Positions 2,372 through 17,827 of a stretch of DNA of 17,827 bases are shown piece after piece. The position numbers and the translations under genes are program-made. How positions within the stretch are numbered: position 1 is the first letter of the stretch; every line of letters begins with the position of its first letter. The DNA comes from an uncultured candidate division Zixibacteria bacterium (lineage in GTDB: Bacteria; Zixibacteria; MSB-5A5; GN15; FEB-12): the NCBI GenBank assembly GCA_913009765.1, contig CAJVYT010000038.1, positions 1 through 17,827 of the forward strand, in the 5' to 3' direction. The notes under the pieces are model-generated. The model had not been told where the DNA came from, ran no database searches, and saw nothing but the letters and a program-made list of their open reading frames with translations.

Positions 2372-4315
2372 ATGAGTAAAATTATAGGTATCGACTTAGG
2401 CACGACAAACTCGTGTGTATCGGTTTTAGAAGGTCAAGAACCGGTCGTAATTCCAAATTTAGAAGGTGCCAGAACGACACCTTCAGTAGTTGGTTTTACA
2501 AAATCAGGAGAACGTTTAGTAGGGGCAGCAGCCAAAAGACAAGCTGTTACAAACCCTGAAAACACAATTTTTTCTGTGAAACGTTTTATGGGACGTATGC
2601 ACAATGAAGTAAGCTCCGAAGAGAAAACTGTTCCATACAAAATAACAGAAAACGAAAAAGGTGCTGTTATTATTGAAGCTGCCGGTCAAAAATATACACC
2701 GCCTGAAATTTCAGCGATGATTTTACAATCTTTAAAATCAGCGGCTGAAAGCTATCTCGGTGAAACTGTTACGCAGGCTGTTATAACAGTCCCTGCATAT
2801 TTTAATGACTCCCAGCGTCAGGCAACAAAAGATGCCGGTAAAATTGCAGGTTTAGAAGTCTTACGTATTATTAATGAACCTACGGCGGCATCACTTGCCT
2901 ACGGTTTACAAAAAGATTTTTCTCAAAAAATTGCTGTCTATGATTTAGGCGGCGGTACTTTTGATGTTTCTATCTTAGAAATTGGTGATGGTGTTTTTGA
3001 GGTTCGTTCTACCAACGGTGATACTCACTTAGGTGGTGATGATTTTGATGAAGCTATTATCAATTGGATGGCGGAAGAATTCTTGAAATCAAACGGTATT
3101 GATTTACGAAAAGACAACATGGCTTTGCAGCGTCTAAAAGAAGCTGCCGAAAAAGCTAAAATTGAACTGTCTTCCACTATGCAGACAAATATCAATCTTC
3201 CGTTTGTTACAGCCGACTCTTCAGGTCCAAAACATCTCGACCTTACTCTTTCACGTGCGAAATTTGAGCAATTAACAGATGCTCTTATTCAAAGAACGGT
3301 TGAGCCTTGTAAAGCTGCAATTCGTGATGCGAAACTGTCTTTATCTGAAATAGATGAAATTGTGTTAGTTGGTGGTATGACCCGTATGCCGAAAGTTATC
3401 GAAATTGTAAAAGGTCTCTTTGGAAAAGAACCTCACAAAGGTGTGAACCCTGATGAAGTTGTTGCTATTGGTGCCGCAGTTCAGGCGGGTGTTCTTTCGG
3501 GCGATATGAAAGATATCGTGCTTCTCGATGTTACTCCGCTCTCTTTGGGTATCGAAACATTAGGTGGTGTTATGACAACTCTTATAGAGCGTAATACAAC
3601 TATTCCAACCCAAAAATCACAAATTTTCTCGACTGCTGAAGATAATCAACCGGCTGTTTCTATTCATGTTTTACAGGGTGAACGTAAAATGGCTATTGAT
3701 AACAGAACACTTGGAAAATTTGATTTAACCGATATTCCACCTGCACCAAGAGGAATGCCTCAAATTGAAGTTACATTTGATATTGATGCTAACGGTATTG
3801 TGCATGTTTCTGCCAAAGATAAAGCTACTAATAAAGAACAATCAATTCGTATTGAAGTTTCTTCAGGACTTTCAGAAGCTGAAATTGATGGTATGGTAAA
3901 AGATGCCGAGAAACATGCTGATGATGATAAACAAAAAGCTGATATCATTCAAGCACGTAACGAAGCTGACCAGTTGATTTATGCCACTGAAAAAACTTTA
4001 AAAGAGCAAGGTGACAAAATAGATGTTGGAGAAAAAACAAAAGTTGAAGAAGCTATTGTGAAACTCAAAGGAGTTATCTCAGGAGAATCTTTAGAAGCTA
4101 TCAACACAGCCAAAGAAGATTTAATGAAAGCATCTCATAAAATTGCTGAGGAGATGTACAAAAAAGCACAGGAAGAACAAGCAGCAGCAGGTCAAGCTGA
4201 ACCGAATGTCAACCAAGGTGCAGAACAACCTCAGACTGATGCTCAAGATAATTCCCAACCGGGCGATGGTGCTGTTGATGCTGACTTTGAAGTTGTTGAT
4301 GAAGATAATAAATAA
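2372..4315 (+). CDS. dnaK: Chaperone protein DnaK (Hsp70)
   Basis: This is an ATP-dependent Hsp70 chaperone that binds unfolded polypeptides in the cytoplasm with DnaJ and GrpE. The product has 647 residues, close to the usual length of about 640. The nucleotide-binding domain shows [11 protein letters not shown] at residues 5-15, [12 protein letters not shown] from 191 and VGGMTRMP at 333-340. The interdomain linker and start of the substrate-binding domain are [11 protein letters not shown] at 386-396. The helical lid follows, then a Gln/Ala-rich disordered tail ending [12 protein letters not shown], typical of bacterial DnaK. AAAGGA at 2358-2363 lies about 8 bases before the ATG. dnaJ starts 7 bases downstream. 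Confidence 0.99.
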
Positions 4316-8001: not shown

Positions 8002-9843
8002 ATGTATAAAAAGAAAAAAAAATATGAATTAGAAGTTCATTTTGGACTCTTAGTGCTGGTTATTATTATGCTCTGTTTGAACATTGTTTCAAACTATGTA
8101 ATTTATAATGCCAAAAATATCTTCAAAGATGATATAAACAGTGATTTGTACAAATCATCTCTGATACTGAGTCGATACATTCAAAATAATCAAGTAACCT
8201 CAATTTCTGAAGCTGATGAAAAACAGTTTTTATATAAGTACAAGCTCGATGATATTGTTCTGCTCCCATCAATGCCAAAAGAATATAGTAAAGAAGCAAA
8301 ACTTCGATGGCTAAACAGCATATTGTTTCATGTCCCTCAAGAAGATATTTTGAAAATATCAGGAATTATATTAACATCGGAATTCTATACTCTTACACGC
8401 GGTGAAAATGACCAATACTACTTTGTTGTACCGGTCTCGATGGGCAGAAACAACAACATTCTCATCCTCTCAAAGAAAATTCGCAAGTTAGCATATCTTG
8501 ATGATGCTTCCGACACGCTTGTTATAATTTCTATGATTACACTGTTTGCTATAATGCTCATTTATTTTCTGCTGTACAGGTTTATTTTATCACCATTTAG
8601 GAAGTTAAAAGATAAGGCAAAATCAGCGGGTCGAACAATACCATCTGAGAGCTATGAAGTAAATTCTGTTGTTGATGAATATCAGACCATTATAAAAGAG
8701 TTAAAAGAAAAAGAGTCCGAATTAGTTGAACTTCATAAAGAAGCGTCTACACGTGCTGAGTCATTTGAACAGTTTAATGAATATCTGCTTGGCTCTATGC
8801 AGGCGGGAATTATTACTATTGATAAATCAGGTACAATATTAACAATTAATAATGCTGCCGAAAAAATTTGTAGTTTGGATTCTTGTATATTTGTAGGAGC
8901 TGATTTTAATCAGCTTCCTTTTTTATTTGATAGTCTCAAAGGTAAAATTTATCAAACTCTTACAAATAAGATATTTCATTCGTACGAAGAATATGAATTC
9001 AATAATCCTTATCTGAGAATTGGTATAACAATTTCACCGATATGTGACAGCAAAACCCATCAAATTGGTGCTTCAATTTTATTAAATGATATTTCTAAAA
9101 TAAAAGAACTCCAAAGCGAAATAGAAAAAAACAGACAAATGTCAGCTTTAGGTGAAATGTCTGCCGGATTAGCTCATCAGTTACGAAACTCATTAGGTGC
9201 CATTGTCGGGTATAATCAACTTATGAAAAAAAGATTAACTCAGAATGATATTGAAACAACAACTATTGATTCAATGGCACTTGAGCTGCGTGAATCAGAA
9301 ATGCTCATAAAACGATTTCTCAATTTTACAAAACCGTATGATTACTCTGCTGAAAAAGAGTATATCGTTCCATTTATAGAAGATATAATAGATACGCTGA
9401 GTATCAGAAATGATTTTGCCCATATCAAGTTGAACTTTGAAAATAAATTACATCATAACACCCGCATTGATATAGACCAATTATTGTTAAAACAGGCAAT
9501 GACGAATATTTTGGAGAACAGTAAAAACGCTTATAATAATGAAAATGGTGTGATAGATGTTAAAATATATGATGAAAATAATAACGTAGTAATTACAATT
9601 CAGGATTATGGGTGTGGAATTGATAAAGATAAAATAAAAAAAATATTTACTCCTTTTTACTCAACGAGTCCCTCCGGCACAGGTCTTGGTTTACCGCTTG
9701 CCCAAAAAGTCATAGCTCTCCATAATGGGCAGCTTTTGGTCGAATCAACTCATGGAGAGGGTACTATTTTTAAAATAATTATTCCTTTAGAAAATCAAAC
9801 AAGAGAAGAGAATTCTGAAATTTTCCTTTCAAATCCTAAATAA
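8002..9843 (+). CDS. Membrane PAS-containing sensor histidine kinase (NtrB/ZraS-like)
   Basis: This is a two-component sensor kinase of 613 residues. A Lys-rich cytoplasmic start (MYKKKKKYELE) precedes membrane helix 1 (about 14-35). An extracytoplasmic domain of about 135 residues follows, then helix 2 (about 174-196), a linker and coiled coil (about 215-250) and a PAS-like domain (about 254-375). The HisKA H-box is GLAHQLRNSLGAIVG with phospho-acceptor His392. The ATPase domain has N-box NILENSKNAY (Asn506), G1 DYGCGID, F-box IFTPFYST and G2 GTGLGLPLAQ. All catalytic motifs are intact. No response regulator lies beside it. The neighbouring prepilin peptidase hints at pilus control, but that is only positional. 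No ribosome-binding site is obvious. Confidence 0.95.
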   Translation: MYKKKKKYELEVHFGLLVLVIIMLCLNIVSNYVIYNAKNIFKDDINSDLYKSSLILSRYIQNNQVTSISEADEKQFLYKYKLDDIVLLPSMPKEYSKEAKLRWLNSILFHVPQEDILKISGIILTSEFYTLTRGENDQYYFVVPVSMGRNNNILILSKKIRKLAYLDDASDTLVIISMITLFAIMLIYFLLYRFILSPFRKLKDKAKSAGRTIPSESYEVNSVVDEYQTIIKELKEKESELVELHKEASTRAESFEQFNEYLLGSMQAGIITIDKSGTILTINNAAEKICSLDSCIFVGADFNQLPFLFDSLKGKIYQTLTNKIFHSYEEYEFNNPYLRIGITISPICDSKTHQIGASILLNDISKIKELQSEIEKNRQMSALGEMSAGLAHQLRNSLGAIVGYNQLMKKRLTQNDIETTTIDSMALELRESEMLIKRFLNFTKPYDYSAEKEYIVPFIEDIIDTLSIRNDFAHIKLNFENKLHHNTRIDIDQLLLKQAMTNILENSKNAYNNENGVIDVKIYDENNNVVITIQDYGCGIDKDKIKKIFTPFYSTSPSGTGLGLPLAQKVIALHNGQLLVESTHGEGTIFKIIIPLENQTREENSEIFLSNPK

Positions 9844-11187: not shown

Positions 11188-11910
11188 TTAATAACCATAA
11201 TTTGATATCTCGCCTACAATATCACCATTTGGATAACTTGAGGCTGTCGCACCAATCACATATCGCACTAAGCCAATTCCCTGAACATACCAATAATAAT
11301 TCATACGTGAACCATTTGGGGTGGAAAGACGAACTGCTTGGCTGTAAATATTTCCATTATCCAGTTCAAGTGATTCTGTTGCCTCAACTGTAAAATTGAG
11401 TGCCGTAGTAGTTGGGAAAGTTTTAGCATTAACATCCGAACCATTAATGGTATCTGTCTGAACACCTGTGATAATATCAGTATAGTCATTTGAATTAATA
11501 TCGTTAGTCGCCCAGCTTATACCGTTTGACAATGGAAGTTGGAGTATCTTTTCAGGTGCTGCACTTATTGAAGAATAATAATACAAAGCATTTCCGGAAG
11601 CATAGAAATATCCTTTGTCTAAACTGTTAGCACTGCTGCCTATCCATTCGACAGCACTAATTCCTTGAAAACTGACAGTCTTACCGGCACGAAATGTAAT
11701 CTGTTCTGTGCCACCGCTAACGTATGTAACATTGTAGATAATAGTATACCCTTCGCTGAGAGGGAAATATGCTTCCACCGGTTCTACCTGTTCTGCAATG
11801 TTAGGATTATCAACGTATGTCACTATAGTATCATCAGTACATCCTATCCATATAAATGCTGTCATACTTAATAGAGTTAATATCATAGTTGTTTTTTTCA
11901 GTATAGGCAT
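11188..11910 (-). CDS. Predicted secreted lipoprotein, function unknown
   Basis: This is a 240-residue protein. Residues 1-24 look like a lipoprotein signal: Lys5-Lys6, a hydrophobic core and IWIGC with Cys24 as the likely lipidated residue. The -3 position is Trp rather than the usual Leu, so the lipobox is imperfect. The mature part is rich in Ser, Thr, Tyr and Asn with alternating hydrophobic residues, suggesting a beta-structured cell-envelope protein. It ends with YYWYVQGIGLVRY, a WYxxGxGLV-like motif I have seen at the end of small envelope lipoproteins, but I cannot name a family. GGAGG (plus-strand CCTCC, 11915-11919) supports the ATG. It is a single-gene unit, convergent with the RNase H gene and divergent from the sensor cluster. 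Confidence 0.85.
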   Translation of the reverse strand: MPILKKTTMILTLLSMTAFIWIGCTDDTIVTYVDNPNIAEQVEPVEAYFPLSEGYTIIYNVTYVSGGTEQITFRAGKTVSFQGISAVEWIGSSANSLDKGYFYASGNALYYYSSISAAPEKILQLPLSNGISWATNDINSNDYTDIITGVQTDTINGSDVNAKTFPTTTALNFTVEATESLELDNGNIYSQAVRLSTPNGSRMNYYWYVQGIGLVRYVIGATASSYPNGDIVGEISNYGY

Positions 11911-12051: not shown

Positions 12052-14109
12052 TTGATAACAATAGGAATTATTCAATACTGCATAGATTTATTTCAACTAT
12101 ATAGAAATACTAACAATAAGGGGAAAAATGCCGATATATATCTTGATGATAAGGAGTTACTTACGCCGGAGGCTGGTTTGGTTTATACAATAGAATTTAT
12201 CTCATCTGTATTCTTTTTTGCAGGTCTTATAGTTGTATATAATTTACGTGATATTATTAGCAATGATAACAAAACAAGTTTTCATAACATTACTGCCGGA
12301 TTGATTACTTTGTCGCTTTGTTCGATTGTGTCTGTATTTGAACAACAGCAATTATTTACTCGTGTCCCGTTTCTAAATATTCCAATATTTTTCCAACTGC
12401 TTTACTGGATTGGGATGATTACCGGTTTGACTATGCTGTTAAATGGAGTTAGTAATTGGCTGCCTGTATACCGAAAACATCTGAAATATAATATTAACGA
12501 ACTTAATAAATCAGAACTTTTCAAACAAATAGAACAACTCATTCGTTTTGAAAATCGTAACCATGTTATCCTGCTTCAGGCTCTTGAGATGATAAACAAA
12601 CAATATAATTTTACAGAGTCAGGCTGCCATCTTTTTTCTCAACAAGAAAAAAAAATGATATTTTTAGGTGCTGCCGATAAAGAAAATAATACGGAAATAA
12701 AATCTCAAAAAATTCACTTTTATAATTCAGCAATTGTTGATTCAATCCAAAATAATAATATTAAACTGGTTTATATCACTGAATCATTTAACTCAATACC
12801 GGATTTACTACTCCCGATGGAAGTAAATAATAAATTGTTAGGTGCTTTCAGCTTTTATGCAGAACTACCTATAGATGAACAAAGTGTTACGAGCTTAAAA
12901 CTTATCATTGATATTTTATCTGATAAATTGTATCGAGATTCAAAAGATATTCAAAATGAATCAAATAAACGTCGAGAAGAGTGGTTAGATAACATTAATG
13001 ATTCAATAGATAATACAAAAACTCTCAAAGAAAATATCAGCAGAGTAAAACAATTACTACAGTCTGAAATCGGAATAGACTATTTATCTATCTCATATAT
13101 ACATCAAGGCAAGAAGCATAATTTGAAAATCTCTGACAACAATCAGGTGCTGGAAAGTTTAATGGATTCATACTCTGAGCAAAATGAAATAGAACAGTAT
13201 GTATTAAACACAAATCTTCCGGTTGTTATAAATAACTTGGACATAGAAACAGATTTTATTGTCGATTTAGTTGCCCTGCAAAATGATATGAAATCAATGG
13301 CAGCATGCCCTATCAGCAATAGCCATGAACAAGTTGGTGTTATTGTTGTCGGTTCTAAAAAATATCAAAATTTTTCAAAAAATAGTTTACAGTATGTAAG
13401 CATACTAAATAACAATCTTGAAAGACTTATAACAAATTCACAATATAAACTTCTTGAAAAATCAGAATCTTTACGTCGTTCCACATTGAATAAGTTACTT
13501 TTTGATACTACTACAAATATGAGTTCAGCTCAGTTATATAAAAAAGTATCAGATTTTATAGCAAAAGAATTAAACGCTTCAATGGTACGAATTTCATTGT
13601 TTGGACAAGATAAACGATTTTTAACTTCTCAAGTTTTATCTGCTGCAGAAAATTCTCCTTTTACCACCCCTGAAGATGCTACTATGATGCTTTCTTTAAT
13701 GCCGAACCATCGAAAAGTTTTACAACTGAGAAAAACTATATCTGTTTTGGTAGATGAAACAGCTACTAAAGAATCAAAGATGGAGCAGCGACAGATCTTT
13801 GGAAATGACTTATCTCACTATATGGTTACTCCTTTATTTAATGGAAGAATGATATACGGAGTTATTACTGTTGGATATACAAGTGATAAGCGTGTTGTAA
13901 CTCCTAATGATGTTTTGATAGTAGAAGATGCCGCAGCAATATTGACAATACAGAACAAAATAAATAGACAGGCAATTAAAATAAAAAATATGCAAACACA
14001 ATTACAGCCTAAAAAAGTTCAAAAAATAAAAGAACACTTTCAGAAACAAAATATAAAATCATCACGACGAATTACAAATCTACGACAGGAAGAGCTGATT
14101 GGGAATTGA
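12052..14109 (+). CDS. Membrane-anchored multi-GAF protein without kinase domain
   Basis: From TTG 12052 the product is 685 residues. The first 145 are membrane-like, with hydrophobic segments at about 42-63, 79-96 and 110-131. Three GAF-like alpha/beta regions appear to follow at about 160-300, 325-465 and 490-650. The tail is basic (AIKIKNMQTQLQPKKVQKIK, then KSSRRITN). No H-box, ATPase, GGDEF or output domain is present, so it is probably a sensor or scaffold subunit. The GAF calls rest on pattern, not on conserved ligand residues. The start is uncertain: TTG 12052 has no ribosome-binding site, and the frame stays open back to 11929, encoding another hydrophobic stretch (LLLIYCGITVYVLLYPWF) but with no usual start codon. 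Gene two begins 3 bases after its stop. Confidence 0.75.
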   Translation: MITIGIIQYCIDLFQLYRNTNNKGKNADIYLDDKELLTPEAGLVYTIEFISSVFFFAGLIVVYNLRDIISNDNKTSFHNITAGLITLSLCSIVSVFEQQQLFTRVPFLNIPIFFQLLYWIGMITGLTMLLNGVSNWLPVYRKHLKYNINELNKSELFKQIEQLIRFENRNHVILLQALEMINKQYNFTESGCHLFSQQEKKMIFLGAADKENNTEIKSQKIHFYNSAIVDSIQNNNIKLVYITESFNSIPDLLLPMEVNNKLLGAFSFYAELPIDEQSVTSLKLIIDILSDKLYRDSKDIQNESNKRREEWLDNINDSIDNTKTLKENISRVKQLLQSEIGIDYLSISYIHQGKKHNLKISDNNQVLESLMDSYSEQNEIEQYVLNTNLPVVINNLDIETDFIVDLVALQNDMKSMAACPISNSHEQVGVIVVGSKKYQNFSKNSLQYVSILNNNLERLITNSQYKLLEKSESLRRSTLNKLLFDTTTNMSSAQLYKKVSDFIAKELNASMVRISLFGQDKRFLTSQVLSAAENSPFTTPEDATMMLSLMPNHRKVLQLRKTISVLVDETATKESKMEQRQIFGNDLSHYMVTPLFNGRMIYGVITVGYTSDKRVVTPNDVLIVEDAAAILTIQNKINRQAIKIKNMQTQLQPKKVQKIKEHFQKQNIKSSRRITNLRQEELIGN

Positions 14110-14112
14110 TGG

Positions 14113-16227
14113 ATGAAAATATTATCTGAAAATGAAACAGCTCTTTTAATTGGAGATTTAAGCAAAATCACTTTGCCTGAAGATATAGAACTGTATGTAT
14201 CAATGGGGATCCCACAGATATTTCAAAGAATCTCACACTCTACTGATGCTGATATAAGAAGAGATTGGCTTTATCTTCCGCTTGATATTTTAGGCACTCT
14301 CAAACAAAAAATAATTAATATCCCGGGAGATACTGTAGATTGTATTAATGAGATTGAACCTTTGAGTTGTGAAAACTTTTTCCTGTTTCCGATTTTTGCT
14401 GACCAACAGGTTGACATAATTTTAGTAAGTAAAAAGAAAAATTTAGGCTCTTTTAAAGAAGAAATAATTCAATGTCTGCTTAGTACATGTCGAGTGTATA
14501 AAGAAAAAAATCAAAAATATGGCGAGAGCCATGATAAGTTTATACAAACTTTAACAGAAAATTCCGATTCAAACATAGGGTTGACAAAAGCAATTTTAAA
14601 TTTATTGGTGAAAAATATTCCAAGGAGTTGTGCGGGATACTATTCAGATGAGCTGTGTAAATTATCACGCCGCATGATAGTTGGAGATTTAAGTAAGTTT
14701 GATCATATCCCTCCATATATTATAGACGAAGAAAAAGATAAATGGGAAAAAGCAGTCAAACAAGATTCAACGTTTATTCCGGCGATCAATCTTTTAAATG
14801 AGGTTCAATTTCTTGTTAATCCTCCACTGTTTTTGTTTGTTCACAGAGGTCTAAAATCAAATTGCTCTGAAAATATTATTTCAGTGCTTATCCCGGGAAA
14901 TACCGACTTATCAGCTGTCTATTTTTTGAAAGCTATTATAAAAATGACCGGTAAATTGTCAGAATCTCAATTTTTAAATTCGGTATCTATAATGGATTAT
15001 TATAAAAAGTATATGTTAAATACTAATATTTATCTTACGCCATTTATCCTACTTGAAAAAATGTTTACTTTGTTGAATAAACAATTACGAATTACCAGAG
15101 TTTTGTTATTTGAAGAAGATAATACTATTGAAATTAGTTTTTCAAAAGATGGTGTGTATAATGCTTTTGAAAAATCATCATTAAAATTGCTTCCTCAAGT
15201 AAAAGAAGAATTTACAGAAACAAACATCTTACGAAAAACAAATTCTGAAAATTGTTATGAAAATTATTCGCAGTATTCTCATGCCGATGTACAAACTGAA
15301 TTTATTTATAAAATAAATATGCCTAATAATTCAGTTCACTATCTTGCTGTCGGAACTTCAAGAAGAATTGAAGTTCTTGAAATGTTTAAACAATTCATTG
15401 ATGATGCTGTAGAAACATTTGTAAAATGCTGTTCTTGTTTATATATGCAATCTGCTTTAGATGACTCTAAAAGAAAGGAAAAAACTTATAAATCAAGACT
15501 TAACTTATCATATAAATTAAGTGTTGGTTATTTTCACCGGCTTTTTTCTAAAATGACAGTGCTGCTTGGAAATATAGAAAATGCCAATAAACACCTTGCA
15601 GCTCAAGAACAAAAAGATGATACTGATAAAATATTAAAACATCTTGTTGTTATTGAAAATAATGCTGATTTAGTAGGTGGTTATATCGATGTATTGCATG
15701 ATTTAACTCATACTGATAATAATTATTATACTAATGAAATTGAAGCTTCTGAAATGCTTAAAAGATTACCAAGAATTTTAGAAGGCTATTTACACTATAT
15801 AAATATTACGAAAAATGTATCCTTACGGATTGACGTATTAACTCATACAAAACCTTGGTTTTTTGTTCTCGGAAGTGATGTTGATGATATTATTATTCCG
15901 GCAATATTGTCAATTGCTGATGCAGCAGTACAAGATGGTACTATTGCTCTTGAAGCACACAAAGAACTGGGTGGTGCGTATATCAAAATTTCTTTACATA
16001 ATTCTTTAATCAATAGTGCGAATATAATAAAAATAATTGCAAAAGCATTTGATGAGTTTGAATTGCAGAATGTTGATGATGACAATTTCACCTTCGGCGG
16101 TACAGTTGTTTCAAATGTCATATCAAATGATTCAACTATTTCTGTAAAAATACAATGTAAGCAAAAATCAGTATCACACACTACTGATATAATACATAGA
16201 CAAAAAGAGGTAATAGATCGTGTCTGA
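14113..16227 (+). CDS. GAF-containing degenerate histidine kinase (pseudokinase)
   Basis: This is a soluble protein of 704 residues. Residues 1-440 look like two or three divergent GAF-like units. The C-terminus follows histidine kinase order but is eroded. The dimerisation helix has VGYFHRLFSKMTVLLGN with His475, which aligns with the GVAHEFNNMIGG of the next gene, but the acidic and Asn residues after the His are gone. In the ATPase-like region (about 580-690) the N-box is replaced by IIIPAILSIADAAVQ, the G1 position by SLHNSLINS and the G2 box by FGGTVVSNVI. ATP binding is therefore unlikely. Intact length without stops argues for a maintained protein rather than a pseudogene. It probably acts as a regulatory partner of the kinase encoded next, whose start codon lies inside its last codons. 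Confidence 0.75.
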   Translation: MKILSENETALLIGDLSKITLPEDIELYVSMGIPQIFQRISHSTDADIRRDWLYLPLDILGTLKQKIINIPGDTVDCINEIEPLSCENFFLFPIFADQQVDIILVSKKKNLGSFKEEIIQCLLSTCRVYKEKNQKYGESHDKFIQTLTENSDSNIGLTKAILNLLVKNIPRSCAGYYSDELCKLSRRMIVGDLSKFDHIPPYIIDEEKDKWEKAVKQDSTFIPAINLLNEVQFLVNPPLFLFVHRGLKSNCSENIISVLIPGNTDLSAVYFLKAIIKMTGKLSESQFLNSVSIMDYYKKYMLNTNIYLTPFILLEKMFTLLNKQLRITRVLLFEEDNTIEISFSKDGVYNAFEKSSLKLLPQVKEEFTETNILRKTNSENCYENYSQYSHADVQTEFIYKINMPNNSVHYLAVGTSRRIEVLEMFKQFIDDAVETFVKCCSCLYMQSALDDSKRKEKTYKSRLNLSYKLSVGYFHRLFSKMTVLLGNIENANKHLAAQEQKDDTDKILKHLVVIENNADLVGGYIDVLHDLTHTDNNYYTNEIEASEMLKRLPRILEGYLHYINITKNVSLRIDVLTHTKPWFFVLGSDVDDIIIPAILSIADAAVQDGTIALEAHKELGGAYIKISLHNSLINSANIIKIIAKAFDEFELQNVDDDNFTFGGTVVSNVISNDSTISVKIQCKQKSVSHTTDIIHRQKEVIDRV
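16207..16210 (+). promoter_or_regulatory. Ribosome-binding site deciding the GTG start of the last gene
   Basis: GAGG lies 9 bases before GTG 16220, inside the end of the preceding gene. It supports the GTG start and the 8-base overlap. Confidence 0.6.
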
Positions 16228-17827
16228 ATCTACAAGATTGATTAAAAGATATTACCATTCTATCAAAAGTATTAACCTCAGAACATTAGTAGATCAGGTG
16301 GATAATATCTCTGTTTTGTTGGCAGATTTATTCGATGCGGATTTTTTGGCGGTATATTATAAAAAAGAGGGGAATGAACATTTGATTCCGGTTGGCTATC
16401 ACAATAATGGAAAACTCATCTCTCCGAATATCCAAATGATTGAAAAAGAATATTGTTCTCATAAAGAGGGAGCAGAACAGCTTGTTGCAGGTTTGCTCTG
16501 TCTCAATGAAGTTGAAGTTAAGGATAATTCGAAATATCTTTTTGCTAAAGAAAATAATTTAAAGTATGTATATCAATTTCCGTATTATAAAAATAATGAT
16601 ATTAAAATATTGATATTAGCGTATTGGTATGAACATCCAAAATATGAAGAACAAAATCTTCAAAAAACGATACAGACTATTTTTAACCTTTTGCAAAGTA
16701 TTTTGAATTCTATTGATGAACACAAAAAAGTTAATGATTATACTATCAGGCTTTCTGACCTTATTTCACTTTTTGAAATTGATATTTCAGAGTATCGGTA
16801 TGACGAATTAGTCCAAGAATTAGTACTCAGATTAAAAAATATAATCCCAAGCGGTTATTTTGTCTTTTCAGCAGATAAAACGAATAGATGTGAATTTATT
16901 GAAGCAATTAATATTGATAAGCCAAGTGACAATTTTATCGCAAAATTTGAAAATGAACTTGAAAATTTCTCGAATGAACTTGATGAGGTTGCAATTCAAA
17001 ATGGCATTTGGGTCGATTATGCCGGTCAGATTAAATGTAAGTATAATACAATTTTAGTTTCTCCTATTTGTAAAGATAGTAAACGGAAAACATATTTAAT
17101 CTATGTCTCTGATCAAGTGAATTCGCTTACTGATAACGACAAACAATTATTGTCATTATTTTCACTCTTTTCCTCTTTGATTTTACAAACATCTTTATTA
17201 GTTGAATCAGAAAAAAAAGTTAATAAACTTCTGAAAAAATCAAGCTCGCAAATAGCTGATATTGAAACATTAGCAGCATTAACAGACTTAACCTCCGGGG
17301 TTGCTCATGAATTCAATAATATGATTGGCGGTATTGTAGGAAGAGTACAGCTGCTGAAATTAAAAGTCCATGACAACGAAGTTCTTGATAAACTGGATAA
17401 AATTGAAATGATTGCTCAAGATGGAGCAGAAACAGTTCGCAGAATCCAAGAATTCTCTTCGGGAGCAAAGTATAAAAAAACAAAACAGTTTGATTTAGTT
17501 ACTCTTATTGAGAAGTTTAAAGAAAACCATAATAGCAAATGGTATAAGGATGCTCAACTCAAAAATGTTACGATACAGCAAAATATAGAGCTGCATACAG
17601 CAATTATTGATGGTATCTTTGATGATGTTCTTCTTGCTTTAATTAATGTTGTAGAAAATGCTGTTGAACACGCCAAAGAAAACTCTTCTGTTCTTATTAA
17701 ACTGTCAGAAGGTTTAAATCATTATGAACTTGAAGTACATAATGTAGGTACAGAAATAAATCAGATGGAATTGAAACGTATTTTCTATCCATTCTTCACC
17801 AAAAAAGATACTTATGGTGCCGGTATG
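16220..17827 (+). CDS. Soluble GAF-containing sensor histidine kinase (3' end outside window)
   Basis: An open frame of 536 codons runs from GTG 16220 to the window edge without a stop. There is no membrane segment. Two GAF-like regions (about 20-165 and 185-335) precede a coiled linker (SEKKVNKLLKKSSSQIADIE). The H-box is SGVAHEFNNMIGGIVGRVQL with phospho-acceptor His363. The ATPase domain shows N-box ALINVVENAVEHA, a relaxed G1 (VHNVGTEIN) and F-box IFYPFFTKK, and the window ends inside G2 (GAGM). Asn for Asp in G1 is tolerated in many kinases, so it looks active. It overlaps the pseudokinase gene by 8 bases. A response regulator or effector may lie just beyond the window. Confidence 0.9.
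   Translation, partial: MSESTRLIKRYYHSIKSINLRTLVDQVDNISVLLADLFDADFLAVYYKKEGNEHLIPVGYHNNGKLISPNIQMIEKEYCSHKEGAEQLVAGLLCLNEVEVKDNSKYLFAKENNLKYVYQFPYYKNNDIKILILAYWYEHPKYEEQNLQKTIQTIFNLLQSILNSIDEHKKVNDYTIRLSDLISLFEIDISEYRYDELVQELVLRLKNIIPSGYFVFSADKTNRCEFIEAINIDKPSDNFIAKFENELENFSNELDEVAIQNGIWVDYAGQIKCKYNTILVSPICKDSKRKTYLIYVSDQVNSLTDNDKQLLSLFSLFSSLILQTSLLVESEKKVNKLLKKSSSQIADIETLAALTDLTSGVAHEFNNMIGGIVGRVQLLKLKVHDNEVLDKLDKIEMIAQDGAETVRRIQEFSSGAKYKKTKQFDLVTLIEKFKENHNSKWYKDAQLKNVTIQQNIELHTAIIDGIFDDVLLALINVVENAVEHAKENSSVLIKLSEGLNHYELEVHNVGTEINQMELKRIFYPFFTKKDTYGAGM

Follow-up and report, generated by a model that had tools for sequence, protein, structure and literature searches.

The window analysed here is a stretch of 17,827 nucleotides of contig CAJVYT010000038.1 (assembly GCA_913009765.1) from an uncultured candidate division Zixibacteria bacterium, and its last three genes (12052..17827) form a co-oriented trio on the plus strand. 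Genes 1 and 2 are separated by 3 bases and genes 2 and 3 overlap by 8, an arrangement already described in a first-pass annotation of the DNA letters and borne out by the open reading frames and the sequence. The products, named p1, p2 and p3, are respectively a membrane protein with GAF domains, a predicted kinase relative without ATP-binding motifs and a histidine kinase (Table 1), and the three genes may be expressed as a single operon. Homologues were obtained by protein searches, in each of which about 8,000 candidates were scored.

Table 1. Features of the three-gene locus, in coordinates of the window
Feature	Position	Strand	Basis
Gene 1 (p1), membrane-anchored multi-GAF protein	12052..14109	+	Open reading frame; Pfam GAF/GAF_2; homologues P0006-P0011; start codons
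p1 hydrophobic N-terminal region, about three membrane helices	12172..12441	+	Kyte-Doolittle scan
p1 GAF domain, best Pfam stretch, residues 334-452	13051..13407	+	Pfam
p1 C-terminal GAF-like stretch, residues 553-629, sub-threshold	13708..13938	+	Pfam GAF_3, 19.6 bits (cut-off 27)
p1 tail QNIKSS-RRITNLRQEELIGN, read as a vestige of the DHp hairpin	14047..14106	+	Tail alignment; HisKA-like match in P0009
Gene 2 (p2), GAF-containing predicted pseudo-histidine kinase	14113..16227	+	Open reading frame; homologues P0001-P0005; AlphaFold2 model; fold searches
p2 GAF domain, residues 288-452	14974..15468	+	
p2 DHp-CA core without ATP-binding motifs, residues 454-685	15472..16167	+	
p2 His475, phosphoacceptor position	15535..15537	+	Alignment
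8-base overlap of the p2 stop with the p3 GTG start	16220..16227	+	Sequence
Gene 3 (p3), GAF-GAF-DHp-CA histidine kinase, truncated at the window end	16220..17827	+	Open reading frame; homologues; Pfam of P0012, P0018, P0013 and P0019; model
p3 tandem GAF domains, residues about 18-330	16271..17209	+	
p3 phosphoacceptor His363 (VAHEFNN)	17306..17308	+	
p3 CA domain, truncated where the G2 box (GAGM) begins	17477..17827	+	HATPase_c, residues 471-533

Domain anatomy of p3, p2 and p1

In p3, both the acceptor histidine and the N-box asparagine (Asn480, in VVENAVEH) are present, and Pfam detected HATPase_c above and HisKA below the cut-off. The G1 box departs from D-x-G-x-G and reads N-x-G-x-E in the window; N-x-G-x-x was found in 7/7 near-clade sequences covering the box, versus D-x-G-x-G in 6/6 far-clade relatives. 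ThkA is an active kinase, and it carries N-x-G-P-P at the same place (3a0r). Therefore, the Asn need not mean inactivity of p3; the letter was not treated as defining, and the reading of p3 as a dead kinase because of it was dropped.

The window sequence stops inside the CA domain. The complete p3 is very probably a hybrid kinase with its own C-terminal receiver, because all 12 full-length relatives run on into such a domain, with its Asp and Lys. Between the two p3 clades the identity was 64% in the DHp domain, 66% in the receiver and 35% in the CA domain, compared with 59%, 43% and 52%, respectively, for eight control hybrids. This pattern is consistent with a tightly held DHp-receiver output, and a conserved downstream partner of the receiver would explain why DHp and receiver are conserved nearly twice as well as CA between the clades of P0012-P0026.

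The AlphaFold2 model of p2 consists of a GAF domain and a DHp-CA core, with residues 1-287 poorly modelled, and fold searches with this model recovered the DHp-CA fold of histidine kinases. No N, G1, F or G2 box was readable by eye in the five p2 sequences that possess the C-terminus. At the acceptor position the alignment has H in three sequences (the window, P0001 and P0002), whereas P0003 has Q and P0004 has N; the alignment was used for these letters as a pattern search had been too strict, matching P0003 alone. A kinase-core hidden Markov model built from 47 of the 52 p3 hits matched the five p2 proteins with a C-terminus at E values of 4.5e-8, 3.8e-5, 9e-4, 1.5e-3 and 0.038, the best of 120 shuffled controls being 0.46. 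The profiles of p2 and p3 gave no significant alignment, either in whole or with the C-terminal part only, so the case for p2 as a kinase relative is built on the predicted fold and the kinase-core model. By these two lines p2 is a predicted pseudo-histidine kinase with its catalytic motifs gone.

Pfam gave no PAS or HPt match in p2 at E<=1, the PAS result being limited by the poorly modelled residues 1-287, and the chain ends about 19 residues after the modelled CA domain. In 5/6 aligned sequences, including the window, the protein is full length (704-706 residues) at identities as low as 37% (P0005 is cut), and has therefore been maintained.

For p1, six homologues (P0006-P0011) were found, from 99% to 27% identity. 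In Pfam its GAF score exceeds the cut-off and two stretches reach E<=1, and the six-sequence profile matched the solved sensor chain 3o5y (E 3.6e-4), which we take to be a GAF domain. An NreA-type GAF accessory sensor was not recovered for p1, which scored 16.6 bits against the NCBIfam NreA equivalog (cut-off 175). The Kyte-Doolittle scan gave three hydrophobic regions at the N-terminus of P0007, P0008 and P0009, two in the window and fewer in P0010 and P0011. The true start of p1 is possibly TTG 12178, which has GGAGG ahead of it, rather than TTG 12052; a start further upstream is still conceivable, because P0009 begins about 18 residues before the position of TTG 12178 and the segment NADIY..DKELL.PEA is common to it and the window.

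At its C-terminus, P0009 has a HisKA-like hairpin with HNLKSS, which scored 26.2 bits against HisKA, just below the cut-off of 26.9. The window and P0007 have QNIKSS at this place and skip 32 residues of P0009 before a similar ending; in P0008, P0010 and P0011 a clear C-terminal hairpin was not seen. The simplest reading of these tails would be that p1 is a former kinase, in which the CA domain was probably lost first, followed by most of the DHp hairpin and the acceptor His.

The first-pass annotation was thus confirmed in part, being largely right about the anatomy. Its division of the trio into a membrane GAF protein, a pseudokinase and a kinase is supported. It foresaw neither the very probable receiver of p3 nor that p1 looks like an eroded kinase.

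Recurrence of the trio

Homologues of all three genes were found on four other contigs, of 28315 bases (P0008, P0002 and P0012 for p1, p2 and p3, respectively), 10871 bases (P0007, P0003 and P0014), 17838 bases (P0010, P0004 and P0013) and 132195 bases (P0009, P0005 and P0016). The assignment to the same contig was inferred from equal contig sizes in bases, and the co-occurrence proposed for checking in the first-pass annotation was recovered as gene content. Identity to the window on these contigs was 36-59% for gene 1, 37-49% for gene 2 and 68-73% for gene 3, and the frames of genes 1 and 2 were intact and of similar lengths (apart from the cut P0005). P0005 and P0016, both assigned to the 132195-base contig, stop at exactly 416 residues, possibly at scaffold gaps.

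The last residue of P0002 and P0004 is Val, and P0012 and P0013, the corresponding p3 proteins, start with M-S-E, which is what the 8-base overlap of the window would dictate; this fits adjacency of p2 and p3 in the relatives, short of proof. Pairwise identities were correlated between p1 and p2 (0.86), p1 and p3 (0.69) and p2 and p3 (0.62), over 10 non-independent pairs.

A candidate signalling module and its alternatives

On balance, the three genes probably make up one signalling module in which p3 alone is catalytic, and p1 and p2 would dock on it as non-catalytic regulatory inputs derived from kinases. As a cytoplasmic hybrid kinase, p3 would autophosphorylate on His363 and then phosphorylate its own receiver, which would hand the phosphate on to an HPt protein or a different target whose gene lies elsewhere. 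p1 and p2 would be former histidine kinases that have lost catalysis: p1 would retain the membrane anchor and the GAF sensors, with the DHp hairpin reduced to a stub, and p2 would retain the GAF-coil-DHp-CA body without ATP-binding motifs. Docking, most likely via coiled coils and DHp helices, would set the kinase/phosphatase balance of p3 and its membrane placement.

No response regulator gene was recognised in the window when the list of open reading frames was read. The first-pass annotation had placed the phosphorylated regulator outside the window; as p3 very probably has its own receiver, an outside regulator is not needed as the first acceptor, and that role would probably fall to the receiver itself.

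A physical complex of the three proteins is suggested by the recurrence of the genes, the coiled-coil-DHp architecture and several precedents, among them DivL with CckA (below). In Corynebacterium glutamicum the CA-dead pseudokinase ChrS heterodimerises with the active HrrS and alters output, although this pair is a product of laboratory evolution and joins two separate two-component systems (PMC9491836). Heterodimerisation with a second kinase inhibits autophosphorylation in RetS-GacS, where, in contrast to the trio, both partners are termed hybrid kinases (PMC12189002). In group A Streptococcus, the kinase-like proteins FasB and FasC of one locus are a proposed heterodimer in which one kinase domain is dispensable (PMC12675982); that system differs in its separate ComE-like regulator, FasA, and in having two kinase-like genes instead of three, and no mention of a hybrid receiver was found for it. 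A three-gene GAF module of this kind was not found in the open-licence literature, as far as the searches went. The first-pass statement that no described system was recognised holds for this exact trio and not in general, since DivL-CckA (below), FasB-FasC and RetS-GacS pair kinases with pseudokinase or heterodimer partners. Known pseudokinase partners make the trio less unusual than it first seemed, and the very probable receiver of the kinase, together with the likeness of p1 to a former kinase, makes it more coherent. It is best called a new arrangement of already known signalling, in which two eroded kinases are encoded next to a hybrid kinase as its partners.

A tentative and rather doubtful extension is that the trio forms a constitutive three-subunit histidine kinase, in which a hetero-oligomer replaces the homodimer and GAF-like segments on three polypeptides (up to eight, about five of them supported) feed one core. 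The DHp stub of p1 and the dead DHp-CA of p2 would then be successive stages of erosion, retained as dedicated allosteric sensors. To our knowledge, pseudo-histidine kinases are known mainly from single cases such as DivL. If the trio is conserved, an active hybrid, a dead kinase and a DHp-stub sensor side by side would offer a route to ask how kinases become regulatory subunits, and a test case for histidine-kinase signalling by obligate hetero-oligomers that pool many sensor domains.

It is unlikely that p2 acts instead as a DivL-like reader, forming no heterodimer with p3 and using its dead DHp-CA to bind a phosphorylated receiver, that of p3 or of a separate regulator, and to relay this state to p3. 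DivL, which has PAS domains and whose acceptor residue is a Tyr (Ala in one species), binds DivK~P (PMC4211667) and toggles the kinase CckA (PMC12189002). The structure of DivL (4q20) was among the Foldseek hits of p2, at rank 37 with E 5.2e-5, but as one of many kinase cores matched and not as the best. The alphaproteobacterial DivL-CckA pair resembles the trio in joining a pseudokinase partner to a kinase, and P0012 matched the NCBIfam CckA models (116.7 and 115.6 bits) and the CpdR receiver model, all far below the cut-offs; p2, in contrast, has a GAF domain ahead of the core and H, Q or N in place of the Tyr. We know of no membrane GAF partner in one operon with DivL-CckA.

Somewhat less weight is given to a trio of co-transcribed yet independent homodimeric sensors, with p1 and p2 acting on other partners and no common complex. 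Two sets of results speak for such independence and weigh against a single module: the profiles of p1 and p2, like those of p2 and p3, gave no significant alignment, and P0011 (p1-like) and P0017 and P0018 (p3-like) were without detected partners. For P0001, P0006 and P0015, whose contigs span just 4.8-6.3 kb, there was too little sequence to assess partners. The comparison of p1 with p3 was borderline, over a GAF region (probability 53%, E 1.3e-4). However, the recurrence of the trio, the tight spacing and the confinement of catalytic loss to genes 1 and 2 point to their reliance on gene 3.

That p2 is a phosphorelay intermediate similar to RcsD, with His475 receiving phosphate from the p3 receiver, is highly improbable. 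RcsD has a C-terminal HPt domain and a kinase-like region. The kinase RcsC, a hybrid sensor (PMC3762810), is joined by an additional sensor and a partner for phosphotransfer (PMC12189002), and this system is like the trio in adding a partner protein and a further sensor to a kinase; RcsD is, however, a phosphotransfer protein, and no HPt match was detected in p2 at E<=1. His475 in the window, P0001 and P0002 would suit such a role, but the Q and N of P0003 and P0004 would not.

Hardly any weight is given to p3 being poorly active alone, with p1 or p2 as a required allosteric activator: the non-canonical G1 box shared by the near clade and the fast-evolving CA domain would fit, but ThkA carries the same Asn. 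Least probable of all, p1 and p2 would be decaying pseudogenes next to a working hybrid kinase, as the absence of active-kinase motifs from both might suggest, against which stand their intact frames at the identities given above and the 44-62% identity of p2 residues 141-290 to P0002-P0005.

Wider searches and neighbouring genes

Genome contigs scanned with p3 gave no relative. A scan with alignment A1 gave at least 80 loci, those listed being no more than 31% identical in the best segment and matching mostly in the kinase core alone. No match was found in viral contigs with A3, in plasmids with p2 or in phages with p1. The whole-genome sets that follow contain no positive control and centre on genomes with no established link to the window, and so have no bearing on absence. 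Among 100 relatives of an Ignavibacteria genome, 53 had partial GAF-type matches (best E 8.4e-12). In the phylum of G003, 50/59 genomes matched at E<=1e-38 (best 1.9e-108), and among the matches listed none starts before model position 193, i.e. these are kinase-core matches; in the phylum of G006, 12/58 genomes matched (best 1.3e-78). The phyla of G002 and G001 gave 0/145 and 0/148 genomes at E<=1e-15, and those of G005, G010 and G004 gave 0/247, 0/246 and 0/296 at E<=1e-115, with 3-4 candidates scored per genome shown.

Upstream in the window lie hrcA (by its NCBIfam match), grpE, dnaK, dnaJ, prmA, an RNA methyltransferase gene and a type IV leader peptidase gene, followed by a histidine kinase gene with PAS-like matches below the cut-off, efp and an RNase HII-family gene (Pfam). 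The closest sequence to DnaK (2372-4315) among 15 genomes came from a Poribacteria genome, at 70% identity, which does not place the organism. Between the RNase HII-family gene and the trio stands a minus-strand gene (11188-11910). For its 240-residue product no Pfam family passed the cut-off and NCBIfam gave nothing at E<=0.01; the protein is lipoprotein-like by eye, with a hydrophobic N-terminus followed by a Cys. Rfam and tRNA scans of the window gave no matches. The second histidine kinase (8002-9843), between the leader peptidase gene and efp, has AtoS as its best NCBIfam match, with 252 bits (cut-off 646). The G+C content of the trio is 30-31%, compared with 34-45% in 10 of the 11 upstream genes measured and 32% in the gene of this second kinase.
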